33,999 nucleotides of DNA from Gammaproteobacteria bacterium (GTDB taxonomy: Bacteria > Pseudomonadota > Gammaproteobacteria > SURF-13). Positions 1,931 through 24,459 of the stretch are shown here, piece after piece. Every line of letters starts with the position of its first letter. Position 1 is the stretch's first letter. The stretch spans positions 1 to 33,999 of the forward strand of contig JAURVQ010000089.1 in NCBI GenBank assembly GCA_030655395.1, read 5' to 3'. The notes below the pieces were generated by a model that saw nothing but the letters and a program-made list of their open reading frames with translations, was not told where the DNA came from and ran no database searches. Both the position numbers and the translations under genes were made by a program.

Positions 1931-2029
1931 GCTTTCCCTCTTGTTAATTCTGGATACAGAGTCCCGAGAGCTGGCCCCGCAAAAGTGGACGGGGCGATAA
2001 GTGGCAGGGTTGCTCATGGGGCTCGTCTC

Positions 2030-4987
2030 ATGGCCCCTTTGAATCAATCCACGGCAAAACTCATACCCACCAATCCATCGCCTGCCTTTGACCGCTTCCG
2101 ACAGGAATTACGCGGCGAGGTGTATACCGATGTGCTGTCCTTGGGGCTTTATGCCACTGATGCCAGCATGTATCAGATCCCGCCGCTGATGGTGGTGGTG
2201 CCGCGTGACCGGGCCGATGCCTTGCGGGCAGTGCGGCTTTGCGGTGAACTGGGTCTGCCGGTGCTGGCCCGCGGCGGTGGCACCAGCCTCACCGGCCAGA
2301 GTGTGGGGGAGGCCGTTATTCTTGATGTTTCCAAGCACCTCAATCACCTGCTCGAACTGAATCTGGAAGAGGGTTGGGTGCGGGTGGAGCCAGGATTGGT
2401 GTGCAGTGAGTTGAACGCACTGTTGCGACCCCACGCTGTCCAATTTGCTCCGGACCCGGCTACGGCCAACCGCGCCAATATCGGTGGCATGATCGCGAAT
2501 AACGCGGCGGGTATGCGCTCGATTCGTTACGGTATGACCATTGACCACGTGCTGGCGCTGGATATGGCCCTGGCCACCGGCGAGGTGTTGAATCTGGACC
2601 CACTGGACGCGGGGCAACTGGCTGCCAAGTGCGCGCTCCCAGATCGGGAGGGGGTGATCTACCGCGGCCTGCGCGATCTGATGATCCGCCATGCTGACGA
2701 AATTCGTGCCCGCTATCCCAAGGTGATCCGTCGCTCCGGTGGCTATGCCCTAGATGCACTGCTCGATGCTGATCCCTGGAACCTGACTAAGCTGATCTGT
2801 GGTAGCGAGGGCACACTGGGGGTGATTCTTGAGGCCAAGCTGCGTCTCACGCCCCTGCCACGCCACAGCGCCCTCTGTCTGGCGCACTTCGACAGCTTGG
2901 ATACCAGCCTGCGCGCTGCTGCGCTCATCGTGGCCGAAGGCCCGTCGGCGGTGGAACTGATCGACGGCGTTATCCTGCGTCAGGCACGGGCACATCCACT
3001 GACGCGCGATGTCTGCGCCCAGATTAAGAGCGATCCGGGCGCGGTGCTGGTCATCGAGGTGCAGGGTGATGATTCCGGGGCCGTGATGACACACATCCAT
3101 CGTATTGCCGATGGACTTTCCGGTAGCGCCTATGCCGCACCTGTGATGACCGAGCCTCAAGCCGTACAGCAAGTCTGGCAGCTGCGCTCCAGCGCCCTTG
3201 GGCTGATGACCACGGTGCCGGGCACTAAAAAGCCCGTGCCCTACATTGAAGATGCTGCGGTGCCGCCCGAGGTACTGGCGGACTATGTGGCTGAGGTGCT
3301 GGCGGTCTGCCGCAAATACAATCAGCCCGTGTCCATGTTCGGCCATGTCAGCGTTGGCCTGATCCACATCCGGCCTTTGCACGATCTGCACCAGAGTGCC
3401 GACATCGCTCGCATGGCGCAGATTCAGGAAGAGGTCTTCCCGCTGGTGCAGAAATATGGCGGCTCCTGGAGCGGCGAGCATGGTGATGGTATTGTCCGCG
3501 GCGGTTACAACCGGCGTTTCTTCGGCGATGCCCTGTATGGTGCCTTCCAGGAAGTGAAACAGTTCTTCGACCAGGAAGGCCGCATGAACCCGGGCAAGGT
3601 GATTGACACACCGCCCTTGGACAGCCACCTGCGCTTCGGCCCCGGCTACCAGCCGCTGACGGTGCAAAGCGGGTTTCATTACCGCGCACAGGGCGGCATG
3701 CTGGCGGCGGCGGAGCAGTGCACTGGCGTGGGTGCCTGTCGTAAGACCCAAGTGGGCGTGATGTGCCCGTCCTATGCCGCCACTCGCGACGAGGTTCACA
3801 GCACCCGTGGCCGCGCCAATGCCTTGCGCCTAGCGCTGACTGGACAGCTTGGCCCTGAGGCTCTAGGCAGCAATGAACTCAAAGCCGTGATGGATCTGTG
3901 TGTTGGTTGCAAAGGTTGCAAGGGCGAGTGTCCAAACAGCGTGGATATGGCGCGTCTCAAATCCGATGTGCTGTATCAACACCAAATGCGTCATGGGGTT
4001 CCGTTGCGGGCGCGGCTTTTTGGCCATCTGTCTGGTATAGCCAGACTGGCATCTGGTCCGCAGGCACCGCTAGTCAATGCACTAATGGGCAGCGCACCCA
4101 TGCGCGGCCTGATGGAAAGAATATTGGGTATTGACTCAAAACGGACGCTGCCACCGTATACAAGTCAGCGCCTGAGCCGATGGTTTGTGCAGCGTCCTTC
4201 CGGCGGCATCGCCACGGAGCAGGGCAGGGTACGTGATACTGTCATACACATGCGGAGTCATCGTGTCGTACTCTTCAACGACACCTACACCGAGCACTAT
4301 TTACCACAAGTGGGTCGCGCGGCCATTGAAGTGCTTGAGGCCGCGGGCTATCAGGTTGAGCTAGCCACTTTGGGCGACAGTCAACGCAGCGTCATTTCCC
4401 AAGGGTTGCTCGACCAGGCAAAACGCGACGGCACCAGGCTTTTTCAGCGGCTAGATGCGCTGCTTGCGGATGGCGTGCCGCTATTGGTGTGCGAACCTAG
4501 TTGCGCTACGGCGCTGGCTGATGATCTGCCGGATCTGTTGGATGACACCGCACTGGCTCATCGCGTAGCCAGTCGCGTTCAGATGCTGGATCGTTTTCTG
4601 GAGCAAGAGCTTGCCGCTGATCGTTGCACACTGCCCTGGAAGGTGCCAGAGACAGCAGCGCCCCGGCGGTTTCTGGTACACGGACATTGTCACCAGAAAA
4701 CCCTGGACGGCGGCCGCTGGACTCATCGGCTACTTGCCCGCATTCCCGGTGCGATCGTGGTCGACACTGAAGCCGGTTGCTGTGGCATGGCGGGTGCCTT
4801 TGGCTATGAAGCCGAACATGCTGAGCTTTCGCGTATAATCTTCGGCCAGCGGCTATTGCCTAGATTGGTTGAGAGTAGCACCGGAACACGTGTTGTGACC
4901 AATGGGTTTTCCTGTCGCCACCAGATTGCTGATCTGAGTGAACGGCAACCGGGGCATGTTATGGAAATAATTCGAGACTTTCTATAA
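2030..4987 (+). CDS. Fused FAD-binding oxidase / 4Fe-4S / CCG-domain protein (glycolate, D-lactate or D-2-hydroxyacid dehydrogenase-like, YdiJ-like architecture)
   Basis: FAD_binding_4 motif ARGGGTSLTGQSVG and NIGGMIANNAAGMRSIRYG; GEHGDGIVRG; Fe-S cysteines CTGVGACRK...CVGCKGCKGECP; C-terminal GHCHQK and GCCGMAGAFGYE. The ORF opens at 1985; ATG 2030 (MAPLNQSTAK) is the more likely start. Confidence 0.85.
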   Translation: MAPLNQSTAKLIPTNPSPAFDRFRQELRGEVYTDVLSLGLYATDASMYQIPPLMVVVPRDRADALRAVRLCGELGLPVLARGGGTSLTGQSVGEAVILDVSKHLNHLLELNLEEGWVRVEPGLVCSELNALLRPHAVQFAPDPATANRANIGGMIANNAAGMRSIRYGMTIDHVLALDMALATGEVLNLDPLDAGQLAAKCALPDREGVIYRGLRDLMIRHADEIRARYPKVIRRSGGYALDALLDADPWNLTKLICGSEGTLGVILEAKLRLTPLPRHSALCLAHFDSLDTSLRAAALIVAEGPSAVELIDGVILRQARAHPLTRDVCAQIKSDPGAVLVIEVQGDDSGAVMTHIHRIADGLSGSAYAAPVMTEPQAVQQVWQLRSSALGLMTTVPGTKKPVPYIEDAAVPPEVLADYVAEVLAVCRKYNQPVSMFGHVSVGLIHIRPLHDLHQSADIARMAQIQEEVFPLVQKYGGSWSGEHGDGIVRGGYNRRFFGDALYGAFQEVKQFFDQEGRMNPGKVIDTPPLDSHLRFGPGYQPLTVQSGFHYRAQGGMLAAAEQCTGVGACRKTQVGVMCPSYAATRDEVHSTRGRANALRLALTGQLGPEALGSNELKAVMDLCVGCKGCKGECPNSVDMARLKSDVLYQHQMRHGVPLRARLFGHLSGIARLASGPQAPLVNALMGSAPMRGLMERILGIDSKRTLPPYTSQRLSRWFVQRPSGGIATEQGRVRDTVIHMRSHRVVLFNDTYTEHYLPQVGRAAIEVLEAAGYQVELATLGDSQRSVISQGLLDQAKRDGTRLFQRLDALLADGVPLLVCEPSCATALADDLPDLLDDTALAHRVASRVQMLDRFLEQELAADRCTLPWKVPETAAPRRFLVHGHCHQKTLDGGRWTHRLLARIPGAIVVDTEAGCCGMAGAFGYEAEHAELSRIIFGQRLLPRLVESSTGTRVVTNGFSCRHQIADLSERQPGHVMEIIRDFL

Positions 4988-5012: not shown

Positions 5013-5783
5013 TTGAAGCTGGTGCGTTACAAGAATGAGGAGTTCGCCGCCGAATTCGGTTGCGTGGAAGGCAATCATGTATACAAGCTGATCGGTGATC
5101 CGCTTGGAAAGCCAGGGCGCGGCGAGTTGGTCGGTGAACTTGGTTCGATTAAGCTGCTCGCACCTTGTGTGCCGCGGAAGGTGGCGGCGGTGGCCATCAA
5201 CTTCCCTGGCATTGAGCGCTATTCCCCAGACATGAAAGAGCCGCTGGTGCTGCTTAAGCCGGGTACCAGTGTCTGCGGCCCCGGCGACCCGGTTATCAAT
5301 CCTTTTCCTGATCTGCCATGGTGGGGCGAGGCCGAGTTGGGTGTGGTGATTCGCCACACGCTGCGTAATGTCGGCGAGGATCGGGTGCGCGAAGGCGTAC
5401 TCGGATTCACCATCGGCAACGATGCCTCGGTCGAGAACGTGGAAGGCCGCGATCACCACTTGGCGCGTTCGAAGGCACCCGACACCTTCTGCCCTCTTGG
5501 CCCGTGGATTGACACCGAGTTCGATGCCAGCGACTGTGTTATCGAGGCGGTTCAGAACGGCGAAGTAATCCGCCGCGGGCGAACCAGCCAGCAGGTATGG
5601 CAATGGCCGCGCGTCGTTTCCTGGCTGTCCACCTGGATGACCCTGGAGCCCTGGGATGTGGTACTCACCGGGAACCCACCGGACACCGTCGGCATGCGCT
5701 TCATCCAGCATGGCGACATCTACACAGCGCGTATCCAGGGTCTGGGCGAGCTGACCAATCCCTTCTACGTCAGAGGCAAATAA
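5013..5783 (+). CDS. Fumarylacetoacetate hydrolase (FAH) family protein
   Basis: TTG start after an AGAGG-like RBS; motifs WWGEAELGVVI, GFTIGNDASVENVEGRDHHLARSKAPDTFCPLGPW, DVVLTGNPPDTVGM typical of FAH C-terminal domains. Confidence 0.85.
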   Translation: MKLVRYKNEEFAAEFGCVEGNHVYKLIGDPLGKPGRGELVGELGSIKLLAPCVPRKVAAVAINFPGIERYSPDMKEPLVLLKPGTSVCGPGDPVINPFPDLPWWGEAELGVVIRHTLRNVGEDRVREGVLGFTIGNDASVENVEGRDHHLARSKAPDTFCPLGPWIDTEFDASDCVIEAVQNGEVIRRGRTSQQVWQWPRVVSWLSTWMTLEPWDVVLTGNPPDTVGMRFIQHGDIYTARIQGLGELTNPFYVRGK

Positions 5784-6640
5784 TGTACGACTTTTTTCTG
5801 GGTTCGCGCGAAGAGATCGCGCGAAACGAGACCAAATTTTTGATATCGGTAAAGCGCATGATGCCACGCTGGGTTAATTCTGTGCCGGATACCGAGTTTC
5901 TTAGCTTAGCCGCACTTCTCGATGCTCAGGGCCAAACTGCCACAAGCGCGGGCAGACGATTCGTGGCTGTCGAAACCGGCGCCGGCGCGAGCAGCTTGGC
6001 CTGTGCCTATTACGCACTCAAATACGACGGGCTGGCGCTGTCATGGGACAGCAATGGTGAAAAAGGTTCGCTTATCCGCACGGTCTGTACCGAGACCATG
6101 GGCAACGTATTTGCCAAGCATGTCGATACCCACTGGAAGCTTGTGGCGCACGACAGCCTGTCACCGTACCTGGGGCTGCCAATTCTTCCCGACCTGGTTG
6201 ACCACGTGGACCTGTTCTTCCACGACAGTGAACACACATGGAACACGGTGCTGGGCGAATTGAAAGCGGTGAATCCGCTGTTGGTTGAGGGCGCGGTGGT
6301 TGCGCTCGATGACGCCAACCAGGATTATCTGCACACCAATATTGCCTATATCAATACATTCAGACGCAAGCTTGGCCTGCCGCCGGTGCCGCGCCCGCAG
6401 GACAACACCAGTCTGCCGTTCTATCAGGAGACGGAGCGCTTTCTTCAGGCCAACTGGGGCAAGGTGGATTATCTGCCCGATCTGTACAAGCAGAACGTCA
6501 GGAACGATCCGTATTTTGCTTATTTCGATGCCGAGTTTGATATCAAGGTCGAGCTTGGCACCGAGCGCCTGGAAAAACTCGAACACCGTTTCGATAGCTG
6601 GCGCGTGAGCAAGCGGCTTGACCAGACGGGCAAGCCATGA
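5783..6640 (+). CDS. Class I SAM-dependent methyltransferase-like protein
   Basis: ATG overlaps previous stop (TAATG). FVAVETGAGASSLACAYYA resembles SAM motif I; DHVDLFFHDSEHTWNTVLGEL resembles the Methyltransf_24 acidic motif. Real start is 5783, not the 5597 ORF start. Confidence 0.65.
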   Translation: MYDFFLGSREEIARNETKFLISVKRMMPRWVNSVPDTEFLSLAALLDAQGQTATSAGRRFVAVETGAGASSLACAYYALKYDGLALSWDSNGEKGSLIRTVCTETMGNVFAKHVDTHWKLVAHDSLSPYLGLPILPDLVDHVDLFFHDSEHTWNTVLGELKAVNPLLVEGAVVALDDANQDYLHTNIAYINTFRRKLGLPPVPRPQDNTSLPFYQETERFLQANWGKVDYLPDLYKQNVRNDPYFAYFDAEFDIKVELGTERLEKLEHRFDSWRVSKRLDQTGKP

Positions 6641-7572
6641 GGGCATTGGTAACGGGCGGCGCGGGTTTCATTGGCGCGCATCTGTGCCGCCGCTTGCTGC
6701 GCGAGGGCTGGTCGGTGCTGGTGGTCGACAACCTGTCCTCGGGACACGCCCGGAATCTGCCCGAGGGCGCGGATTTCAAATGGCTGGATCTTACCGACGA
6801 GGACGCGGCGCTCGAACTGCCCAAAGATGGCGTAGATGTGGTGTTCCATCTAGCTTCTCATGTCGGCCAGGAATTGTCGTTTGAGCGACCGTTGTTTGAT
6901 CTCAAGGCGAATGCATTTTCCACCATGATCTTGCTCAAATGGTGCCTGGAGAAGCGCGTCAGGCAACTGGTTTTCGCCAGTTCAATGAACGTGTATGGCG
7001 ACCCGCTTCAGGTTCCGGTCACGGAAGACACGCCGGTGCAACCGCCCTCACCCTACGCAGTTGGCAAGATCGCCTCGGAGTATCTTTGCAAGGTGTATCA
7101 GACTTTCGGCGTGAACACCACCAGCCTGAGGTTATTCAACGTCTACGGCCCGATGCAGGACATGCGCAACATGAAGCAGGGCATGGCCAGCATCTTCATG
7201 ACTTACGTGGCCCGCAATGAACCCATCCTGGTGCGCGGCTCCAAGGATCGGTTTCGCGATTTTATTTGTGTGCATGACGTCGTCGATGCTTTTCTACGCT
7301 GCGTCGACGAGCGGGCCTACGGGAAAATCTATAATGTTGCGACCGGAAAAAAAACCCACGTCTGGGAGCTGTTGCACGGCATTATCGCTGCGTTTGGCCA
7401 CGATCCGCAGGAGTATCCCGTTGCTTACGGTGAACCGACCCCACGCGACCAGTTCGGGGTGTTTGGTGACTCGTCCCTGCTGCAACAGGACTTGGGATGG
7501 AAACCGGCCGTGGCTCTGGATGAGGGCCTGCGCGAAATGGCGGACTGGGTGCGGCGGGAAGCCATCCTTTAA
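6637..7572 (+). CDS. NAD-dependent epimerase/dehydratase (UDP-glucose 4-epimerase-like SDR)
   Basis: GGAGFIGAHLCRRL Rossmann motif, YAVGKIASEYL (YxxxK), LRLFNVYGP. Confidence 0.9.
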   Translation: MRALVTGGAGFIGAHLCRRLLREGWSVLVVDNLSSGHARNLPEGADFKWLDLTDEDAALELPKDGVDVVFHLASHVGQELSFERPLFDLKANAFSTMILLKWCLEKRVRQLVFASSMNVYGDPLQVPVTEDTPVQPPSPYAVGKIASEYLCKVYQTFGVNTTSLRLFNVYGPMQDMRNMKQGMASIFMTYVARNEPILVRGSKDRFRDFICVHDVVDAFLRCVDERAYGKIYNVATGKKTHVWELLHGIIAAFGHDPQEYPVAYGEPTPRDQFGVFGDSSLLQQDLGWKPAVALDEGLREMADWVRREAIL

Positions 7573-7596
7573 CAACTTCGAGAGAACGGGAAATAC

Positions 7597-8355
7597 ATGA
7601 AAGTCGTGATTGGTATACCGGCGCGTATGGGTTCGTCGCGTCTGCCGGGCAAGCCGCTGGCGAAAATCCTCGGCATGCCGATGGTCGAGCATGTCTACCG
7701 GCGCTGCCTGCTGGCAAAAGGTATCGATGAAGTATTTATCGCCACCTGTGATCAGGAAATCCTCGACGCCGTAAAGTCGATTGGCGCCCAAGCCTTCATG
7801 ACGCGCAAGGACATCGAGCGTCCTGGCTTGCGCGTTGCCGAAGCCTGCCGACAGCAGCAACTCGCCGACGACGACATCGTGGTGGTGGTTCAGGGCGATG
7901 AGCCGCTGGTCCACCCCGGCATGATCGACCTGGCGGTACAGCCCATGCTGGACGATCCGGCGATCCAGCTTTTGACCTTGGTGGCCGATGCCAATGAGAC
8001 GGAGTGGTGCGACCCCAACGAAGTGAAAGTTGTGATCGACATTAGGGAGGACGTGCTGTTTATGTCGCGTAGCCCGCTCCCGTCCAACGAGTGGAGGCAT
8101 ATCGGGCCGCGCCTGAAACAGGTCGCGATCATGCCCTTTCGCAAGAAATTCCTGCTCGAGTTCCAGGCCATGCCGCCGACACCCTACGAGCTCGCCGAGC
8201 AAATCGAGCTACTGCGCGCAGTGGAGCACGGCGTGAAGATTCGCGCCGTGAAATCGCCGTACCAGAGTATTTCGGTGGACACCGAGAGCGACCGTCAGGA
8301 GGTCGAGGCCGCGATGGTGAGCGACGAGTTCTATCTGCAATACGCCAAACGTTAA
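7597..8355 (+). CDS. 3-deoxy-manno-octulosonate cytidylyltransferase family protein (divergent KdsB-like)
   Basis: MKVVIGIPARMGSSRLPGKPLAKILGMPMVEHVYRR, VVVVQGDEPLVHP, NEVKVV, SVDTESDRQEVEAAM. The canonical HQSGTxR signature is replaced by IERPGLR. Confidence 0.82.
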   Translation: MKVVIGIPARMGSSRLPGKPLAKILGMPMVEHVYRRCLLAKGIDEVFIATCDQEILDAVKSIGAQAFMTRKDIERPGLRVAEACRQQQLADDDIVVVVQGDEPLVHPGMIDLAVQPMLDDPAIQLLTLVADANETEWCDPNEVKVVIDIREDVLFMSRSPLPSNEWRHIGPRLKQVAIMPFRKKFLLEFQAMPPTPYELAEQIELLRAVEHGVKIRAVKSPYQSISVDTESDRQEVEAAMVSDEFYLQYAKR

Positions 8356-8365
8356 CGAGGCTCAA

Positions 8366-9205
8366 ATGACCATCCCCAATCGTATCAAATCGGAACTCAG
8401 AGCCGGACGTACGGTGTTCGGCACTTGGTCCAACCTGTCCTCGCCTTCGGCCTTGAACGTTATTGGGCAGTCCGGGCTTGATTTCGTCATTATTGACATG
8501 GAGCATGGACCAACGTCTTTTGAGACGGCAGAAATGCAACTGTACGCCACCGAGTCGGCCGGCTGTACCCCAATAATCCGCTTGGGTGAAGGTAGTGATA
8601 CGACCATCCTGCACGCCCTTGACATCGGTGTGCAGTCGCTACTGGTATCGCAGGTCGCGACCCCCGAGGAAGCGCAACGAATAGTGCGCGCGTCCAAGTA
8701 TTTCCCCGATGGCAACCGCGGCCTTTCCCCGTATACCCGCAATCACGGTTACTCCGACGCCAATCTGGCAGAGAAGCTGCATCGTGCCAACGAGGAGATG
8801 CTTGTCGGGGTGCTGGTCGAAGGAGAAGCGGGCATGGGCAACCTGGAGAAAATCGCACAAACGCCCGGGCTGGACATGATCTACCTCGGTATATTCGACA
8901 TCTCCATGGCGGTGGGAGTGCCGGGTGACGTGCGGCACCCCAAGGTGGTGAAGATGGTGCGTGATTGCGTACGCGTCATAGAGGGGCATGGACTTGCTGC
9001 GGGTTCGGTTGCACCTGACCGCGAATATCTGAAACTGCTGCACGAGGCAGGCTTTCGCTTCCTGTCTTATCGGGTCGACAGCGCTGTGCTGCGTGAAGGT
9101 TTCGCCACAGCCTGTTCCTGGTATGAGGAGTTGTGTGTGCAGCCGGATTCAGGCAAAGGTGTGCGTCGTCAACCGGGCACCAAATCACCAAAGGGGGGCA
9201 GTTAA
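8366..9205 (+). CDS. HpcH/HpaI-type class II pyruvate aldolase (2-keto-3-deoxy acid aldolase family)
   Basis: GTWSNLSSPSALNVIGQSGLDFVIIDMEHGP; PIIRLGEG; VLVEGEAGMGNLEKI; DMIYLGIFDISMAVG. Positions matching the HpaI catalytic His/Arg and metal Glu/Asp appear kept. Confidence 0.85.
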   Translation: MTIPNRIKSELRAGRTVFGTWSNLSSPSALNVIGQSGLDFVIIDMEHGPTSFETAEMQLYATESAGCTPIIRLGEGSDTTILHALDIGVQSLLVSQVATPEEAQRIVRASKYFPDGNRGLSPYTRNHGYSDANLAEKLHRANEEMLVGVLVEGEAGMGNLEKIAQTPGLDMIYLGIFDISMAVGVPGDVRHPKVVKMVRDCVRVIEGHGLAAGSVAPDREYLKLLHEAGFRFLSYRVDSAVLREGFATACSWYEELCVQPDSGKGVRRQPGTKSPKGGS

Positions 9206-9468
9206 TGCCTGCGTCAGGCCATGCATGTCCATTGTGCGGGGCAGGTGCGAACCAGCAGCGCGTCCTGCTGCATTGGCTTGGGCGTAAGTTTGAAGTGCGC
9301 CCCGGCCAGCGCTATGACCTGCCCAACCACATGCACTGGATGCTTGCCGGCCAGCCAGGTGGAATGGGTAAATACAGCCACATCTTAAGCCGTGAAACTG
9401 AGCGCTCCTACGCTGAAGATTTGAAGCGCAACGGGTACTGCGATTATCTGATCGCAATCATCTCCTGA
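9205..9468 (+). CDS. Small (87 aa) protein with an N-terminal CxxC motif, unknown function
   Basis: ATG 9205 overlaps preceding TAA (TAATG); MPASGHACPLCGAGANQQRVLLHWLGRKFEVRPGQRYDLPNHMHWMLAG... Confidence 0.55.
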   Translation: MPASGHACPLCGAGANQQRVLLHWLGRKFEVRPGQRYDLPNHMHWMLAGQPGGMGKYSHILSRETERSYAEDLKRNGYCDYLIAIIS

Positions 9469-9479
9469 GCTGGTGCCGC

Positions 9480-11330
9480 ATGGTAAAAGTGCTGTACCTG
9501 ATTCATGCCGCATCTGCCCCGCAACGCTTGGCCAAGGCACAGATTGCTAGTGCGACACCGGTTCCATGGATGTTTCTATGCCAGGATTATGCGCGCCATT
9601 TGTACTGGGAGCGCACGCTCGGAGCGAACTTCGCCAAGCTGCCTTTGCGCGATCTCCTTGTGGAGGCAGCGGCCGGGTTGCGCCAGCCCTTTCTTGATCT
9701 GCTATCCGAACGCGGCCGTAAGCACGACTCGCTAGCCTGGTGGGCCTCACGCGTTTCCGAGCGCAATACCGCAGTGTCCCCTCTATTTCTGTACTGCTGT
9801 TATCTCAAAATTGGGCAAGTACGGCTTGCGCGTAGCGATGGGCCGCTTGTTATCGTCGGCGAAAGCTATGCACTGCTTTCCAGTTTGGCCAGTCACGCGG
9901 AACAAGAAGGCTATGCAGTCCAATGGCTGAATCGGCCGAATATCGTGCTGCGTTTTTTCAGGCACCATGCCATCGCGTTTCTACGCGCGGCGAGATTTCT
10001 GGCGCACGCCTTGGTACAAACCACTTTAGGACCGCCGCCGGCTCCGCTGCCTGCTGATCGACCAAGCGCACTACTGCACACATTTCTGGATGAACAGTGT
10101 CTGGGCAAGGATGGCGAATTCCATGACCGTTATCTGCCGGGATTGTGCACATGGCTTGAAGGAAAGGGCTTGACAGTAACGCACATGCCGATATTGTTCA
10201 ACATGCGGCGCAGCAAGGCTGCAACTTGGTGCTGGCTGGCATCAAGCCGGCAACGCTTCATCAACCCCTATCGTTGTTACCGAATTTCCGACTACCTGGC
10301 CGTATTGGTCGAGGCGATGCCCGGTCGCAGCAGAAAATTCGGCCCGGCTGTTCTGGGTAACCTTGATGCCAGCGCCCTGTTCAGCGAAGCGCAGGCAAAT
10401 TGCACCTACGATGGAGGAACGCTCGAGTCGCTGCTTTCCTACCGCCTGCCGCTTCGCCTTCGCGAGCGCGGCATCAAAATCGACCTTTTCGTCGCCGAAT
10501 ACGAAAACATGATTACGGAGAAGCTCCTTATCGCAGGATTCCGTAAATACTCCCCGAACACCAAGCTGGTCGGCTTCCAGCATGGCGCGCTCTATCCGAT
10601 GCTGCTGTGTAATTTCATCACTCGTGAAGAGGCGCAGTTTGCCCCGATGCCTGACCGCATCGTGTGCAACGGGCCCTTTTTTAGGGATATCCTGATTCGG
10701 GAAGGTCTGCCGGCAGATCGTGCCGTAGCCGGGCCGGCGTTGCGATATAGTCATCTTTGGCGGATACAGCCGAATGCAGAGTCGCCGGCGAGACAGGGGG
10801 TTTTTGTCCCGTTGCCCATGATGCAGAGTGATGCCACGGAATTGCTCACCAAGCTGATTGAGGCATTTGGCGCCGAGCCGCAGATCACACTTTCGCTCAA
10901 ACCGCACCCGATGTCGTCATCGCGTATGCTGGAGGCCGCCGGCATCTCCGGGCTACCGCAAAACTTTCGCATAGTTTCCGGAGAAATCGGCATGTGGTTG
11001 TCTCGGGCACAGGTGGTGGTTGCACTGAGCTCGAGTGCACTGTACGAGGCGCTAGCGGCGGGTGTCCTGGTGGTGCCGGTTGGACGCGAAGCCGCGCTGG
11101 ACCTGAACCCGCTTGCATGGCATCCGCGCTTCGCGAAACAATATTGTTCCGCCGAAGAAATCCGCTCAGAAACTACTCGCCTGATGCATCTTGGGCCAGC
11201 CGATTTGCAGGCTTATCGGGAACACGCGCGCCAGATTCTTGATCACAGCTTTGGCCAAATCAACGAAGACACGATGAATTGTTTCATTGACGGCCTGTTG
11301 CCAGCAGGCGGTGCGTTGCTCCCACGATAG
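9480..11330 (+). CDS. Large GT-B-like surface carbohydrate biosynthesis protein, candidate glycosyltransferase
   Basis: 616 aa; SLKPHPMSSSRMLEAAG...VVVALSSSALYEALAAGVLVVPVG is a GT-B style donor-binding region similar in form to KpsS/CDP-glycerol transferase-like enzymes; KLVGFQHGALYPM motif. Confidence 0.6.
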   Translation: MVKVLYLIHAASAPQRLAKAQIASATPVPWMFLCQDYARHLYWERTLGANFAKLPLRDLLVEAAAGLRQPFLDLLSERGRKHDSLAWWASRVSERNTAVSPLFLYCCYLKIGQVRLARSDGPLVIVGESYALLSSLASHAEQEGYAVQWLNRPNIVLRFFRHHAIAFLRAARFLAHALVQTTLGPPPAPLPADRPSALLHTFLDEQCLGKDGEFHDRYLPGLCTWLEGKGLTVTHMPILFNMRRSKAATWCWLASSRQRFINPYRCYRISDYLAVLVEAMPGRSRKFGPAVLGNLDASALFSEAQANCTYDGGTLESLLSYRLPLRLRERGIKIDLFVAEYENMITEKLLIAGFRKYSPNTKLVGFQHGALYPMLLCNFITREEAQFAPMPDRIVCNGPFFRDILIREGLPADRAVAGPALRYSHLWRIQPNAESPARQGVFVPLPMMQSDATELLTKLIEAFGAEPQITLSLKPHPMSSSRMLEAAGISGLPQNFRIVSGEIGMWLSRAQVVVALSSSALYEALAAGVLVVPVGREAALDLNPLAWHPRFAKQYCSAEEIRSETTRLMHLGPADLQAYREHARQILDHSFGQINEDTMNCFIDGLLPAGGALLPR

Positions 11331-11430: not shown

Positions 11431-12495
11431 ATGTCAAAGGAAAATAATATTATTCGCGTTGGGATAGCCGGATACGGCATGGTTGGCAAGCGCAGACGGG
11501 CATGTGTTGATCGAAACCCGCTTATGAACCTTGTGGCGGTTTGCGATCGTGCATTCGAGAGGGAGGGAAGCTTTTCTGACGGGGTTCGCTATTATCCCGA
11601 GTATCGTCGGCTACTCGAGAATAGCCTGGACATGTTGATTGTTTGTCTGCCCAATGACATCGCGCCAGAAGTCACGATCGCCGGACTGGAACGTGGGCTG
11701 CATGTATTCTGCGAGAAACCGCCTGGGCGCGATGTTGAGGACATAGTCCGAGTCATCAGGTGCGAGCGAAAACATCCCGGCCTCAAGCTCATGTATGGCT
11801 TCAACCATCGCCATCATGAATCCGTTCAGGATGCGCTTCGCCTGATACGATCCGGAGAGCTTGGCCCCATTATCAATATGCGGGGGGTCTATGGAAAATC
11901 AAAATTAATTACCTTCAACCAGCCCTACTGGCGTACCAAGCGGCATATTGCCGGCGGCGGTGTCTTGCTTGACCAAGGGATACACATGGTTGATTTGATG
12001 CGCTTGTTCGCCGGCGAGTTTAACGAAATTCAAAGCTTTATTTCGAACAGTCACTTTGGGTATGACGTCGAAGATAATGCCTATGCGCTGATGCGAACAG
12101 AGGATGGAATTGTCGCAATGCTCAACTCATCGGCTACTCAATGGCGGCACCGTTTTAATCTTGATATCAATCTTGCCAACGGCAGCATTATTCTCGGCGG
12201 AATTCTGTCCAGTTCCAAGAGCTACGGAGCCGAGACTCTGACAGTGGTCAGGGCTGATCACGATAATGATGGCGGCGATCCCAGAGAGGAGATGGTTCGT
12301 TATAACCGCGATCCTTCATGGGACGATGAGATCAACAGTTTTGCCGAAAGCATATTGTCCAACAAGCCAGTTGAGAGCGGCTCCTCGCTGGATGCGCTCA
12401 ATACGATGAAGCTGGTATATCAAATTTATTATGCCGACCCGAAATGGCGGCAAACCTACAACATACCCGATCCCGAAAATCAAACTCCGCCATGA
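11431..12495 (+). CDS. Gfo/Idh/MocA family oxidoreductase
   Basis: RVGIAGYGMVGKRRR Rossmann motif, GLHVFCEKPPGRDVEDI (EKP), GGGVLLDQGIHMVDLM. Likely ATG 11431 (MSKENNIIRVG). Confidence 0.9.
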   Translation: MSKENNIIRVGIAGYGMVGKRRRACVDRNPLMNLVAVCDRAFEREGSFSDGVRYYPEYRRLLENSLDMLIVCLPNDIAPEVTIAGLERGLHVFCEKPPGRDVEDIVRVIRCERKHPGLKLMYGFNHRHHESVQDALRLIRSGELGPIINMRGVYGKSKLITFNQPYWRTKRHIAGGGVLLDQGIHMVDLMRLFAGEFNEIQSFISNSHFGYDVEDNAYALMRTEDGIVAMLNSSATQWRHRFNLDINLANGSIILGGILSSSKSYGAETLTVVRADHDNDGGDPREEMVRYNRDPSWDDEINSFAESILSNKPVESGSSLDALNTMKLVYQIYYADPKWRQTYNIPDPENQTPP

Positions 12496-12950
12496 GCCAT
12501 CTTGGCCGTGTTTTTACCCATGATCCTATAGTATTTGTAATCGCTATTTCGATTTGCTCGATGCACGGAAAAGAATGGCCACCGCTTATTTTATTGACAA
12601 TGGGGCAATGCAGCGACAGCCAGTCATTTTGCCAATGATCAGTCGATTGACTGAATAGCTATGACAAGCCATTTCATGTGATTGGCCTGACCGACCACCA
12701 GGAGGTCATCACGGTATTGGCAAACGATTCCGGCTTGGAAGAAATTTTTGTTCGCCAGTTGTGTGGTATCGGCCGACTAGCCGATACCGTTGCCATTACG
12801 GCTTTCGACGGCTGCCAGATGAAAGCGATGGCAGATGATGGTATCCATGTGCCCACCGAGCCCAAGGAATATGGCCCCGCCGAGGACGCACACATGATTC
12901 TCGATCACCTTGTAGGGGCGTATCTGATGCGGTATGTCCGGCCTATATAA
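12492..12950 (+). pseudogene. Decayed SIS-domain phosphoheptose isomerase-like (GmhA-like) gene
   Basis: Homology is split over frames: RYFDLLDARKRMATAYFIDNG (frame from 12539), GNAATASHFAND (frame from 12604), then YDKPFHVIGLTDHQEVITVLANDSGLEEIFVRQL...AITAFDGCQMKAMADDGIHVPTEPKEYGPAEDAHMILDHLVGAYLM (frame of 12678 ORF). In-frame stops lie between the pieces and the central SASGNS-type segment appears missing. Confidence 0.75.
12765..12788. repeat. Perfect 9-bp inverted repeat (GGTATCGGC-cgacta-GCCGATACC)
   Basis: Read directly; lies at the point in the gmhA-like pseudogene where the central SIS segment is missing. Confidence 0.85.
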
Positions 12951-12962
12951 GGATCAATAAGT

Positions 12963-13679
12963 ATGCGTTTTTCAGACAAGAAGGTATTTGTCACGGGTGC
13001 ATCAAGGGGAATAGGTCGGGCAATTGCCGAAGCGTTTCGATCCGAGGGCGCCTGGGTAATAGGAACCCGCACTGGCAAAAGCAGTGGAATGGATGATGCT
13101 TGTCAAGAGTGGGTTGCTGCTGACTTCTCGGACGTTGAGCAAATCAAGGCTTGTGCTCGCCATGTGCGCCATGCCGAACCTGATGTGCTTGTTAATAATG
13201 CGGGCATCAACAGGATTGCGCCATTTGTGGAGATCAGCCCGGATGATTTTCTTTCTATACAGCAGGTAAATGTCTTTGCGCCATTTTTGCTTTGTCAGGC
13301 TGCGATACCTGCAATGAAAAATAAAGGATGGGGCCGCATCGTGAATGTGTCATCCATCTGGGGAAAGATCAGCAAGGAACACCGTGCATCTTATTCTGCC
13401 AGCAAATTTGCAATAGATGGCATGACATTAGCTTTGGCTGCTGAGCATTCAGCCGATGGCATCCTTGCGAACAGCGTTGCGCCAGGTTTTGTTGATACTG
13501 AATTAACCCGCCGCGTGCTGGGTGCAGCAGGGGTACAGTCTCTTGTGGACACTGTGCCGGCACGTCGACTCGGGCAGGTTGATGAAATTGCTCGTTTGGT
13601 CCTCTGGCTCGCCAGTGAAGAGAACACTTACCTCACCGGCCAAAACATAGCCATTGATGGAGGCTTCAGTCGTGTCTGA
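12963..13679 (+). CDS. SDR family NAD(P)-dependent oxidoreductase (FabG-like)
   Basis: VFVTGASRGIGRAIAEAF, NNAGI, YSASKFAIDGM, C-terminal YLTGQNIAIDGGFSRV. Confidence 0.92.
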   Translation: MRFSDKKVFVTGASRGIGRAIAEAFRSEGAWVIGTRTGKSSGMDDACQEWVAADFSDVEQIKACARHVRHAEPDVLVNNAGINRIAPFVEISPDDFLSIQQVNVFAPFLLCQAAIPAMKNKGWGRIVNVSSIWGKISKEHRASYSASKFAIDGMTLALAAEHSADGILANSVAPGFVDTELTRRVLGAAGVQSLVDTVPARRLGQVDEIARLVLWLASEENTYLTGQNIAIDGGFSRV

Positions 13680-14742
13680 GCAGTTGATAATTCAATCCCA
13701 CAGAGGGGCATATACCGTACATTTTGACGACACACTCTTATCTGACCCGGCGAGGCTTCTGGAGGGCGAACCTCATTTCTTGGTTGACGCCAATGTGGCG
13801 CGATTATATGCCTCTAGTCTCCATGCAATTCTTCATCATCCCAATGCCATTGTTATTGAGGCAACGGAAGAAAATAAATCAATAGAAAGAACGATACCTG
13901 TTATTGAGCGGCTGGTTCAGAACAAGGTGCGGCGTGACCACACCCTTGTTGCAATCGGTGGTGGCATCATCCAGGACATCACCTGCTTCATTGCGAGCAC
14001 GCTGCTGCGAGGACTTTCCTGGCGCTTTGTGCCGACGACGTTGCTGGCCCAGGCAGATTCGTGCATCGGTTCAAAGAGCTCCATTAACCTGGGTGCGACC
14101 AAGAATATTCTCGGCACCTTCAACCCCCCTCAGAATATCTTTATCCATTCAGGATTTCTTGAAACTCTCGAAGACAGGGACATTCGATCGGGTGTTGGAG
14201 AAATCATCAAGGTGCATGCGATAGATGGGATAGCTGCGTTTGATCGGTTGACGTCTGATTTCGATCGGTTGTTTGATGATCGAGCCGTGCTTTTAAGATA
14301 TACCCGGGCGGCTTTGCTGATAAAGCAGCGCTACATTGAGCAGGACGAGTTTGATCGCGGGATTCGCAACATCTTCAATTATGGCCATAGCTTTGGCCAT
14401 GCCATCGAGTCAGCCGCGCATTACGCAGTGCCTCATGGCATTGCTGTTGCCATAGGCATGGATATGGCCAATTACATTGCCGCAAAGCGCAGTTTGTTGC
14501 CGGTGGAGCATTACCATCGGATGCATTCTATTCTGCGTAAAAATTATGGAAAATATGCAAGAACCCCGATCCCGCTCGATGCAATGCTTTCCGCACTTAT
14601 GAAGGACAAGAAGAATACGAGCACTATGCTACGCCTGATTTTCCCGATGGGTGACCGGGCTGAAATTCAGCAGGTACAGGTTTTGCCGGATGAAATATTT
14701 CGCTCTCAATGCGCAGAGTTCTTCGTGGAGATTAATGGATGA
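13672..14742 (+). CDS. 3-dehydroquinate synthase-like sugar-phosphate cyclase
   Basis: AIGGGIIQDITCFIASTLLRGLSWRFVPTTLLAQADSCIGSKSSINLGATKNILGTFNPP, GVGEIIKVHA, NYGHSFGHAIES. Likely GTG start 13672, overlapping the SDR stop. Confidence 0.85.
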   Translation: MSEQLIIQSHRGAYTVHFDDTLLSDPARLLEGEPHFLVDANVARLYASSLHAILHHPNAIVIEATEENKSIERTIPVIERLVQNKVRRDHTLVAIGGGIIQDITCFIASTLLRGLSWRFVPTTLLAQADSCIGSKSSINLGATKNILGTFNPPQNIFIHSGFLETLEDRDIRSGVGEIIKVHAIDGIAAFDRLTSDFDRLFDDRAVLLRYTRAALLIKQRYIEQDEFDRGIRNIFNYGHSFGHAIESAAHYAVPHGIAVAIGMDMANYIAAKRSLLPVEHYHRMHSILRKNYGKYARTPIPLDAMLSALMKDKKNTSTMLRLIFPMGDRAEIQQVQVLPDEIFRSQCAEFFVEING

Positions 14743-15686
14743 GTTCTACCGCCAAAGTCGCGGTTTGCTCCCGTTCCTTCTCCAAGAATACCATTTTGCG
14801 CGCCGAATTGATGGCGCGGTATCAACAGGTCACCTTCAACGATGCGGGTCTCCAGTTAAAGGGCGACAGCTTGGTCGAGTTTCTGAGCGGGCATGACAAG
14901 GCGATCACCGCCCTTGAGACTATTGATGAGGCGGTACTGTCCCGTCTGCCCGAACTCAAGGTCATCAGCAAATATGGTGTTGGACTCGACATGATAGATA
15001 TGGTGGCCATGCGTGCTCATGGCAAGCGCCTGGGCTGGACCGGCGGGGTTAACCGCCGCTCCGTGTCCGAGTTGGTAATCTCGTTTGCCATCGCCATGCT
15101 GCGCCACGTGCCGGCGGCCCATCGCGAAGTTCTCTCGGGCACTTGGCGCCAGCATGTTGGGGGCCATCTGACAGGGCGCACCGTCGGCATTATTGGCTGT
15201 GGCCATATCGGCAAGGACTTGGTGCCCTTGTTGCAGGCCTTCGACTGTCCAATTCTGGTGAACGATGTTCGGGATTATCCCGATTTCTACGCGGCACACA
15301 ACGTTGAACCGGTAAGCCTTGAGACTCTCTTGGTGCGATCCGACATCGTTACCCTGCATGTTCCCCTGGATGAGAGCACCCGTGGCATGCTTGATGCCCA
15401 CAGGCTTACAATGCTGAAGCCTACCGCCGTGCTGATCAATGTCGCCCGGGGCGAGTTGGTCGATGAGGCTGCATTGAAGCAGATGCTGCAGAACAAGCGC
15501 CTGGCAGCCGCGGCCTTCGATGTATTCGCGGTAGAGCCACCCCCGGATCAAGAACTGCTGGCCCTCCCCAATTTTCTGGTTACCCCCCACATTGGAGGCA
15601 GCGCCCACGAAGCCGTACTGGCCATGGGGCGGGCAGCCATTGACGGTTTGGATCACAACCAGATTCCCGGAACCGAGGTTGACTGA
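14739..15686 (+). CDS. D-isomer-specific 2-hydroxyacid dehydrogenase (phosphoglycerate dehydrogenase-like)
   Basis: GRTVGIIGCGHIGKDLVPLL, VTLHVPLDESTRGMLD, AVLINVARGELVDEAAL, TPHIGGSAHEA. Confidence 0.9.
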   Translation: MSSTAKVAVCSRSFSKNTILRAELMARYQQVTFNDAGLQLKGDSLVEFLSGHDKAITALETIDEAVLSRLPELKVISKYGVGLDMIDMVAMRAHGKRLGWTGGVNRRSVSELVISFAIAMLRHVPAAHREVLSGTWRQHVGGHLTGRTVGIIGCGHIGKDLVPLLQAFDCPILVNDVRDYPDFYAAHNVEPVSLETLLVRSDIVTLHVPLDESTRGMLDAHRLTMLKPTAVLINVARGELVDEAALKQMLQNKRLAAAAFDVFAVEPPPDQELLALPNFLVTPHIGGSAHEAVLAMGRAAIDGLDHNQIPGTEVD

Positions 15687-21598: not shown

Positions 21599-23020
21599 AT
21601 GGTTAACATAGACAACCTGCGCGTCTGGTTCCAGCAGGCGCCGTATCGCGTATTCTGGGCTGCCGTCTTTTGCACAACATCCGCAATTGCTCTCACTGTC
21701 CAACTAATCGTGCTTCCGTACCTGTTGCCGGGACTGCATGCGGGAAACGGTTTGCTCGTTGGCGGCGACTGGGTGACGTTTCATGAAGTCGCCAGTAGGC
21801 TTGCGGAAAAAATAAACGCGCAAGGGTGGCAGGCCTGGACCTTGCGGCCCACGGCGGAGTTGACGGCAGGACCTGAAGGACAGTCAACGGCCGGTATCGC
21901 CGCCGCGATTTACGCCATCACCGTGTCCAAGCCGTATGTGCTCATCCCGCTCAATGCGGCCCTGCACGCCACGGCCGCTGTCACGCTCATGCGCATCGCT
22001 CGGTATCTGACCGGTGACGACTTCACCGCCATGTGCGCGGCGCTGCCCTTCGTGCTGTTTCCGTCAGCGATGACATGGTATGCCCAGATACACAAGGATG
22101 GCTTTTATTTTGCCGGTGCGTTCCTGTGTCTTTACGGTTGGATGCTGCTCGCGCGTCTGCCGACTTGGCAATCAGGCTGGCGAACGGTGCTGGCGGGATT
22201 GGCTTGGATCGGTGCGGGGGTTGCCCTGATGGGGCTGGTGCGTACCTATTCATTCCAGGTGGTGCAGGGGGTGGGTTTTGTTTTTGCCACGGGACTGTCC
22301 ATGCTGTTCATCGTGCGCGGCGTGAAAAAACAACTGCCTTGGAAGACCTGCACCGCGGCGATTGCCGTCCTGTTTCTGGTACCGCTACTGCTCAGACTCG
22401 CGCCAGTCGATACGAAACTCAGCTACAAAGTGCCGGAAGCGACTTCTACGACGGGCTTAACAGTTGACAGTCATGGTGAAGCGCTTGTGAGGGATCATTG
22501 GCGCGCCAGCGGGTGGCTGCCGAACTTGATCGAAAACAAATTCCTGTGGCTCGCCGTGCAGCGCGACGGATATATTCTTCGGGAGCCCGACATGGAGCAG
22601 CATCAGAAGGCGGGCAGCATGATAGACCGCGATGTGCGGCTGTTCAGTGTGTCCGACTTTGTTGTCTATCTGCCGCGCGCTGCCCAGATCGGGTTACTTG
22701 CCCCTTTTCCCATCCACTGGATCACACCGGGGGCTAGTACGGCCGGCTCTCTCATGCGTCAGCTGGCGGGCGTGGAAATGATCGGTGTGTATTGTGCGCT
22801 GCTGTTCCTGCCATATGCCATGTGGCACTGGCGCGGCAAGGTGGAAATGTGGCTGCCCGTTGTGTTCGGTACGATGCTGGTTCTGGTCTATGCCTTTTCC
22901 ACCCCCAACCTCGGTTCCCTGCACCGCCAGCGCTACGGCTTCCTTATGTTGCTAGTGGGAGTTGGGCTCGCAGGCTGCTTGAGCGCACTGAAGCTGCGGG
23001 CGTCCAGGCAAGCGGACTAG
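21599..23020 (+). CDS. Polytopic membrane protein (candidate Wzy-like polymerase or GT-C glycosyltransferase), paralog 1
   Basis: 473 aa, many hydrophobic segments; shares LLPGLHAGNGLLVGGDWV, WYAQIHKDG and other blocks with the next gene. Confidence 0.6.
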   Translation: MVNIDNLRVWFQQAPYRVFWAAVFCTTSAIALTVQLIVLPYLLPGLHAGNGLLVGGDWVTFHEVASRLAEKINAQGWQAWTLRPTAELTAGPEGQSTAGIAAAIYAITVSKPYVLIPLNAALHATAAVTLMRIARYLTGDDFTAMCAALPFVLFPSAMTWYAQIHKDGFYFAGAFLCLYGWMLLARLPTWQSGWRTVLAGLAWIGAGVALMGLVRTYSFQVVQGVGFVFATGLSMLFIVRGVKKQLPWKTCTAAIAVLFLVPLLLRLAPVDTKLSYKVPEATSTTGLTVDSHGEALVRDHWRASGWLPNLIENKFLWLAVQRDGYILREPDMEQHQKAGSMIDRDVRLFSVSDFVVYLPRAAQIGLLAPFPIHWITPGASTAGSLMRQLAGVEMIGVYCALLFLPYAMWHWRGKVEMWLPVVFGTMLVLVYAFSTPNLGSLHRQRYGFLMLLVGVGLAGCLSALKLRASRQAD

Positions 23021-23022
23021 CG

Positions 23023-24459
23023 ATGAGATCGTTTCCCGCACTTCATTTCCCTTCTGTCACGCCAAGCCGCATCTGGGCGTTTTTTTTCGTCTTCGCCGCC
23101 GCCACGGCGCTGTTACTGCAATGGGTGGTGCTGCCCCATCTGCTCCCCGGACTCCATGCCGGAAACGGCCTGCTGGTAGGGGGTGACTGGGTCGGGTTTC
23201 ACGCGATGGCTGTAGATCATGCCGCGGAAATCCGTGCGCAGGGCTGGTCCGCATGGGAACTGCGGCCATGGAACCAGGCACCGTCCGGCATTGCGGCGGC
23301 GCTGTATGTGCTCACCGTTCCCCATCCCTGGGTGCTGGTGCCGCTCAACGCCGCGGTTCATGCCACAACCGGCGTGGTGCTGGTACGCATCATGCAATCC
23401 TTTGTCCCCGACTTTCGCCATGCGCTGGTCTGCGTGCTGCCCTTCATGCTCTTTCCTTCCGCGCTGACTTGGTACGCGCAGATACACAAGGACGGTTATT
23501 ACTATGCAGGCATCTTTCTGAGCCTGTACGGCTGGATATTGCTCGCCCGCCTGGAAACCTGGAAAGGGCGCGCTGGAGAACCACTGCGTGGCCTGCTCTG
23601 GATTTTTGTAGGCTGCTTGCTGATCTGGGTCGTCCGTCCGTACGGCGTCAATCTGATGCAAGGCATCGGCGTCATCTTTGTCCTGATGCTGGTGCCTTTG
23701 TTCATCTTCCGCGGCCTGCGGCGGCAACTTCCGGCATCACGGGTCGTGGTGTCCGTGCTGATCGTTTTGGCGCTGCCTGTGACATTGGGCGTCTATAAGG
23801 ACATGGGTGTCTATGAGAGTAGGGGCATCCATGAGAACAAGGGTCTCCATGAGAGCAGGGGTCTCCATGAGAGCAGGGGCATGGATGGCGCAGCCACTGT
23901 GCTAACTTATAGTGCGCGGCACTTGGGGCTTGGTGGTGATTTTTCCGAAGTTGAGCAGATTCGCTGGCAGAGGACCGCTTGGCTGCCTGCTTCACTCGAC
24001 GAGATATTCTTTACGCTCAGCATGATACGCTCAGGCTACGCGCAATCGAAAGGTGCGAGCATGGTGGATGCCGATGTCCTGTTTCGCAGTGCCGTGGACT
24101 TCATTCCCTACCTGCCCCGGGCCTTGCAGATCGGTTTTGCCGCGCCTTTCCCGACACAATGGCTCGGTCAGGGCAGCAGCGAGGCCAACACTATGATGCG
24201 CCGTATTTCCGCGCTGGAAATGATAGTCGTGTATTGCGTGCTGTTGTTTCTGCCTTATGCCCTGTGGCTGTGGCGCAGAAGAATTGAAACTTGGCTGACC
24301 TTCAGCTTCTGCACCATCCTGCTCTTGATCTACACCTACATCATGCCCAATGTCGGCAGTCTCTATCGCACCCGCTACGGCTACCTCATGATGCTGGTCG
24401 CGCTTGGCATCGCGGGTGCGATTTCCGCGTGGCGTGATTTACACAGCAAAACGACCTGA
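23023..24459 (+). CDS. Polytopic membrane protein (candidate Wzy-like polymerase or GT-C glycosyltransferase), paralog 2
   Basis: Real start is ATG 23023 (MRSFPALHF), just after the previous TAG; collinear similarity to 21599-23020; contains hexapeptide repeats. Confidence 0.6.
   Translation: MRSFPALHFPSVTPSRIWAFFFVFAAATALLLQWVVLPHLLPGLHAGNGLLVGGDWVGFHAMAVDHAAEIRAQGWSAWELRPWNQAPSGIAAALYVLTVPHPWVLVPLNAAVHATTGVVLVRIMQSFVPDFRHALVCVLPFMLFPSALTWYAQIHKDGYYYAGIFLSLYGWILLARLETWKGRAGEPLRGLLWIFVGCLLIWVVRPYGVNLMQGIGVIFVLMLVPLFIFRGLRRQLPASRVVVSVLIVLALPVTLGVYKDMGVYESRGIHENKGLHESRGLHESRGMDGAATVLTYSARHLGLGGDFSEVEQIRWQRTAWLPASLDEIFFTLSMIRSGYAQSKGASMVDADVLFRSAVDFIPYLPRALQIGFAAPFPTQWLGQGSSEANTMMRRISALEMIVVYCVLLFLPYALWLWRRRIETWLTFSFCTILLLIYTYIMPNVGSLYRTRYGYLMMLVALGIAGAISAWRDLHSKTT
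23788..23877 (+). repeat. 18-bp in-frame tandem repeat, 5 units
   Basis: Units translate as GVYKDM-GVYESR-GIHENK-GLHESR-GLHESR; the last two units are identical at DNA level (ggtctccatgagagcagg). Confidence 0.85.

Follow-up and report, generated by a model that had tools for sequence, protein, structure and literature searches.

In the pathway to 3-deoxy-D-manno-oct-2-ulosonic acid (Kdo), the steps are carried out by an isomerase, a bond-making enzyme, a phosphatase and a cytidylyltransferase, and to our knowledge the established bacterial routes to ulosonic acids activated with cytidine monophosphate (CMP), those of Kdo and of sialic, legionaminic and pseudaminic acids, all build the acid from phosphoenolpyruvate (PEP). 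A different arrangement is seen in a stretch of 33,999 nucleotides from a gammaproteobacterial genome (contig JAURVQ010000089.1, assembly GCA_030655395.1; the whole stretch is called the window below), in which a gene for a KdsB-like cytidylyltransferase (7597–8355) is followed after 10 bp, on the same strand, by one for an HpaI-type metal-dependent aldolase (8366–9205). The block around these two genes probably serves to produce a 2-keto sugar acid different from Kdo in CMP-activated form and to put it to use, the HpaI-type enzyme performing the aldol reaction, the cytidylyltransferase, a member of what is termed here the KQ subfamily of KdsB, activating the product, and a 616-aa protein transferring it. 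Gene content, retained catalytic residues, the KdsB subfamily, its linkage to HpaI and to a D-2-hydroxyacid dehydrogenase (D2HDH), and the presence of separate kdsA and kdsB genes are observed, and from these we infer all of the reactions as well as the sugar and the transferase.

The cytidylyltransferase departs from its relatives in two places. Ordinary KdsB and KpsU proteins share the motifs HxSGTDR and [RK]H[IV]G[LI]Y..[YF]R, which are absent from the KdsB proteins adjoining HpaI; the first is replaced by a segment resembling HER[AC][TS]DR (IERPGLR in the window) and the second by one resembling KQ[VL]xI[IM][PA]FR, from which the protein of genome G520 deviates (QQTGVMAF), and these replaced motifs are the ones that we take to face the sugar in KdsB structures. 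The window protein has a CTP_transf_3 fold (PF02348, 166 bits, E 1e-48) that keeps the catalytic Lys and the two Mg-binding Asp, and the residues for cytidine triphosphate (CTP) and Mg, K19, D101 and D228, are invariant across the KQ subfamily and match the catalytic and metal residues K19, D95 and D219 of KdsB (PMC3149649). A profile built from nine KQ proteins separates the subfamily cleanly, with at least 372 bits for KQ proteins and at most 283 for others; nine of the ten scored KQ proteins are inside the profile, and the tenth, from G338, lies outside it and scores 372. In a tree from a short search, the KQ proteins and an odd member from G396, which carries yet another motif, fall on one branch (SH-aLRT 97). 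The KQ motif thus offers a simple sequence test for finding further members. An alternative is that the enzyme makes ordinary CMP-Kdo, as KpsU does for Escherichia coli capsules, the aldolase being unrelated or providing another route to Kdo. This would agree with the closest solved structure, which is KpsU, and with two KdsB subfamily models that the window protein passes (NF009905, 268 bits for a cut-off of 255; NF003952, 242 for 193). However, it misses both Kdo equivalog models (TIGR00466, 147 bits for a cut-off of 155; NF003948, 162 for 281), and both of the ordinary KdsB/KpsU motifs are replaced.

The Kdo genes found elsewhere in the same genome (G000; 1.72 Mb, 97.9% complete) bear on the same question. 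As the preliminary description of this DNA had remarked, there is no KdsA in the window, none being found among its annotated genes; the KdsA of the genome is on another contig (417 bits to TIGR01362), between genes reading as pyrG and eno. A second KdsB, with ordinary motifs, is also on another contig and adjoins genes reading as lpxK and an MsbA-type transporter. With these separate kdsA and kdsB genes, the KdsB–HpaI pair of the window is not needed for Kdo. One Pfam search of the genome for WaaA (PF04413) gave no match despite the presence of KdsA and KdsB, which may reflect an assembly gap and from which no conclusion is drawn. KdsA was found above cut-off in 8 of the 11 genomes tested, including that of the window, which also speaks against production of ordinary CMP-Kdo. 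A complete single-contig genome (G323, locus L066) has a KQ-type KdsB and HpaI but lacks a KdsA scoring above cut-off; HpaI might take the place of KdsA in that genome, which is a point in favour of CMP-Kdo. On the whole, that explanation is unlikely, and a sugar acid other than Kdo is preferred.

The preliminary description had named a lack of conserved co-occurrence between the two genes as a ground for abandoning its reading. Their distribution was followed in samples of 399 genomes, of 369 from the window's class and of 48 from another class, loci being collected by KdsB protein or profile (that of G166 came up first via the aldolase, and the KdsB profile later picked it out as well). KQ-type KdsB occurs in 4 of the 369 genomes (G000, G166, G323 and G338) and in 6 of the 48 (G382, G426, G477, G485, G505 and G520). 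An HpaI gene lies within 10 kb of it in all nine loci that can be judged, versus none of 11 loci of similar length with an ordinary KdsB (Fisher p = 6e-6, or 3e-5 with G396 counted as a failure; the loci are related, so that these values are a guide only). In the tenth locus, that of G505, KdsB runs up to the end of its contig, and a second contig starts with methyltransferase, HpaI, HAD, SDR (short-chain dehydrogenase/reductase) and D2HDH genes in the same order as in G338; joining the two contigs into one locus is a reasonable inference. In a careful tree, HpaI sequences from seven KQ loci group as a single clade (97/94), and the two from the window and G166 pair up elsewhere with strong support. 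Two HpaI lineages therefore stand beside the same KdsB clade, which means that the two genes came together, or the aldolase was swapped, on at least two occasions, and the co-occurrence holds in two classes. Plasmid searches with two KQ-type proteins found no close relative. The Streptomyces matches in these searches were kdsA-SIS-kdsB groups or lone kdsB genes, one such group being present on a plasmid of the Gram-positive Streptomyces sp. NBC_00963 (L127, 8569–10744).

The aldolase of the window is the sole PF03328 match in the genome (E 1.7e-27). It keeps the catalytic Asp, Glu, His and Arg columns and the metal-binding Glu and Asp columns of this family, as do all the paired HpaI proteins. 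Among its relatives are solved hydroxyketoacid aldolases (6r62) and two aldolases of catabolism, GarL and YfaU. Kinship with the latter two is one argument for considering that the HpaI, FAH and FabG-like SDR genes make up a non-phosphorylating module for sugar-acid breakdown which just happens to lie in a polysaccharide locus. Another is the FAH-superfamily protein (5013–5783; PF01557, 127 bits, E 1.1e-36; PF10370, 28 bits), presumably acting on keto acids as a hydrolase, decarboxylase or tautomerase, which scores 89 bits, below cut-off, to 2,4-didehydro-3-deoxy-L-rhamnonate hydrolase. However, no sugar-acid dehydratase is found among the annotated genes of the window, and HpaI tracks KdsB in distant genomes, whereas FAH is seen in the window and G166 only (the counterpart in the same block of G166 scores 436 bits). 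A catabolic module is very unlikely on these grounds, and the aldolase is better seen as part of the biosynthesis of the sugar acid. The aldolase itself scores far below the catabolic equivalogs HpaI, GarL and YfaU (172, 142 and 123 bits for cut-offs of 369, 407 and 441). There is also a looser third case of pairing. In two other genomes (G053, locus L121, and G249, locus L122), an HpaI gene close to the window's branch directly precedes a NeuA-like cytidylyltransferase, with a gene reading as a DRE-TIM lyase before the pair and one reading as a HAD phosphatase after it. Loci of this sort may be another type of ulosonic acid locus built on an aldolase.

The last step of the proposed pathway would fall to the 616-aa protein (9480–11330), a GT-B-like protein with a KPHP motif. 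It has no Pfam match above cut-off and is not a member of TIGR04326, a family of surface carbohydrate proteins, to which its similarity is weak and C-terminal (56 bits for a cut-off of 250; 51 bits for the G166 counterpart). Its low-confidence structural model (mean pLDDT, the predicted local distance difference test, of 45) matches generic GT-B enzymes and UDP-GlcNAc 2-epimerases, which is uninformative about CMP. Proteins above the TIGR04326 cut-off (L065, 457 bits; L114, 536; G520, 452) sit immediately next to KQ-type KdsB in G505 and G338, and in G520 next to D2HDH. They are rare, being present in 3 of the 399 genomes, two of which are KQ genomes; the third, G731 (L118 and L120), has D2HDH, SDR and HAD genes with a NeuA-like enzyme instead of KQ-type KdsB and HpaI, and a NeuB-like gene, by reading, in the neighbouring stretch. 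It is plausible from these sequence relationships that the 616-aa protein transfers a CMP-sugar. That the acid would be an ulosonic acid other than Kdo, as first put forward in the preliminary description, is supported by the separate kdsA and kdsB genes, the changed KdsB motifs, the polysaccharide cluster and these TIGR04326 neighbours elsewhere, its chemistry being deduced from protein families. One step further, there could be a whole family of ulosonic pathways that rely on HpaI instead of the PEP-dependent synthase and have a KdsB subfamily of their own together with transferases of the TIGR04326 type, assembled repeatedly from different HpaI lineages and possibly including a NeuA-type version (that of G053 and G249); this broader proposal is tentative, about as likely as not.

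The genes named in the preliminary description, those for the FAH protein, methyltransferase, SDR, KdsB-like, HpaI-like and 616-aa proteins, are all present where it had placed them, collinear and on the + strand, and Pfam matches confirm the families of the KdsB–HpaI pair and of its SDR, methyltransferase and FAH neighbours. The methyltransferase is of class I (Methyltransf_24; coding part about 5786–6640; PF13578, 41 bits) and the SDR is an extended epimerase/dehydratase (6637–7572; PF01370, 188 bits, E 2.8e-55; the G166 ortholog scores 480 bits). The interval then chosen, 5013–11330, was too short though, since the conserved block reaches 15686 and takes in, still on the + strand, a Gfo/Idh/MocA oxidoreductase (11431–12495, in a frame open from 11380; PF01408 and PF22725; 534 bits to G396 and 492 to G166), an isomerase remnant, a FabG-like SDR (12963–13679; PF13561, 176 bits), an AroB-like protein (13654–14742) and the SerA-like D2HDH (14739–15686; PF02826, 187 bits). 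The remnant, which had been missed, is a pseudogene of a GmhA-like SIS isomerase (12554–12941), broken up over three frames and with a gap of 27 residues, recognized by tblastn with the intact SIS protein of locus L073 (43% identity, E 9e-26). An intact SIS gene is found at the corresponding position, between Gfo and FabG, in G396, while Gfo is directly beside FabG in G166. The block of the window therefore seems to descend from a SIS-containing arrangement whose isomerase has since been lost, although an assembly error might also account for it.

With these partners, a sequence of reactions can be outlined. The SDR, Gfo and D2HDH enzymes, and possibly the FAH protein, would prepare a sugar aldehyde acceptor and/or a keto-acid donor. 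The HpaI-type aldolase would join pyruvate or a close relative (e.g. hydroxypyruvate) to the acceptor, yielding a 2-keto (3-deoxy) acid, whose C2 hydroxyl the KQ-type KdsB would link to CMP from CTP by the two-metal mechanism of KdsB, and the 616-aa TIGR04326-like protein would transfer the acid into the surface polysaccharide of the locus. A heptulosaric acid (the papers listed on it were mostly about plants), an octulosonic acid or a nonulosonic acid would all fit as product. The most constant partner is the D2HDH, found in or near every KQ locus (on the partner contig in G505 and G520), and its best family match in the window is phosphoglycerate dehydrogenase. This could mean that it supplies hydroxypyruvate as the donor for HpaI, giving a 2-ulosonic acid that keeps its C3 hydroxyl, an idea for which the solved hydroxyketoacid aldolases among the HpaI relatives and the co-occurring phosphatases can also be invoked. 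However, it rests purely on co-occurrence, D2HDH could equally act on the acceptor or the product, and the enzyme is present without HpaI in G396, all of which makes this variant improbable. Other partners come and go. Strong Gfo matches are seen in G166, G426, G382 and G520, with a split one in G485. G426, G485 and G382 have GmhA-like SIS isomerases, the last of them with a transketolase in addition. Phosphatases are of the HAD type in G323, G477, G338, G505 and G520 and of an inositol-phosphatase type in G426 and G485.

The AroB-like protein, a putative cyclising sugar-phosphate phospholyase, passes TIGR04425 (471.5 bits for a cut-off of 400), and in L073 (contig C17 of G396) the same-clade KdsB-like gene is in a block with Gfo, SIS, FabG, AroB-like and D2HDH genes. 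On these grounds, the AroB-like, Gfo and FabG genes might act on the sugar acid, or on a precursor of it, to form a carbocyclic sugar, as proposed for unusual O-antigen sugars. This is quite unlikely, because no AroB-like gene is seen in the stretch read at most KQ/HpaI loci, and that of the window may serve a different sugar of the same glycan. Bradyrhizose was considered on account of this gene; a paper on that sugar knows of no genes for it beyond one assumed cluster.

Several observations weigh against an aldolase-based ulosonic acid pathway. HpaI is absent from the whole genome of G396, a member of the KdsB clade, so that it is not strictly required by the KdsB enzymes of this branch. The accessory genes vary among loci, and the products therefore probably vary too. 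The isomerase pseudogene may mean that part of the original pathway has been lost in the window, whose 616-aa protein, in addition, is far below the TIGR04326 cut-off. Finally, the substrate, the product and the glycan structure are all putative.

The cluster of the window is a surface-polysaccharide locus. Downstream of 15686 are genes for a sugar methyltransferase, an aminotransferase, CDP-glucose enzymes (TIGR02623 and TIGR02622, each exceeding its cut-off) and a number of glycosyltransferases. Upstream of the FAH gene, a FAD/Fe-S oxidase related to the D-2-hydroxyglutarate dehydrogenase YdiJ (1985–4987, + strand; PF02913 and PF01565; NF049975, 596 bits, below the cut-off of 1350), with 972 bits to a close relative near the block of L073 and kept in G396 only, is a possible helper of the cassette. 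A second cytidylyltransferase, of the PseF/nonulosonic acid type (6–707; 155 bits for a cut-off of 206), had been overlooked at the contig start, and a second CMP-sugar may be used in the same glycan. It is followed by a 426-aa protein with a THP motif and no family match (650–1930). Further on, at 21599–24459, two long open reading frames (473 and 555 aa, overlapping by ~230 bp) are without any Pfam or NCBIfam match.

In the open-access literature searched (subscription papers being outside its scope), no report was found of HpaI paired with a cytidylyltransferase or kdsB, or of a pyruvate aldolase used for ulosonic acids. If the reading presented here is true, a conserved aldolase-based route would be an added branch of CMP-ulosonate chemistry, some genes annotated as a second kdsB would probably be misnamed, a function would be suggested for TIGR04326 proteins, and sugar acids as yet unknown would be predicted in the glycans of the carriers.

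Among described systems, the Kdo pathway (KdsD, KdsA, KdsC and KdsB; KpsF and KpsU in capsules) offers a close parallel, in the order of steps, in the KdsB fold and catalytic residues, and in the presence of all four kinds of enzyme in several of the related loci. It differs in that HpaI stands where the PEP-dependent KdsA would be, the KdsB motifs are replaced and D2HDH, Gfo and SDR enzymes are added; in the window, what is left of the isomerase is a pseudogene, and a phosphatase of the HAD type was not identified. With the HpaI, GarL and YfaU aldolases of sugar-acid and aromatic-acid breakdown, the aldolase shares PF03328 and the catalytic and metal-binding columns, but its scores are far from their equivalog cut-offs, its acceptor-side segment differs (GLSPYTRNHGYS), and it belongs to a biosynthetic locus, where its neighbour is a cytidylyltransferase. 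Nonulosonic acid pathways (NeuB with NeuA or PseF) likewise activate a 2-keto acid with CMP for surface glycans, and the window has its own PseF-like gene; in contrast to them, no NeuB is found among its annotated genes and the enzyme beside the aldolase is of the KdsB rather than the NeuA type. The TIGR04326 surface carbohydrate proteins resemble the 616-aa protein weakly, at its C-terminus, and unlike it the true members score above the family cut-off and adjoin KQ-type KdsB elsewhere. The enzyme families are known, and what would be new, should the chemistry prove right, is their arrangement into a variant route to ulosonic acids.

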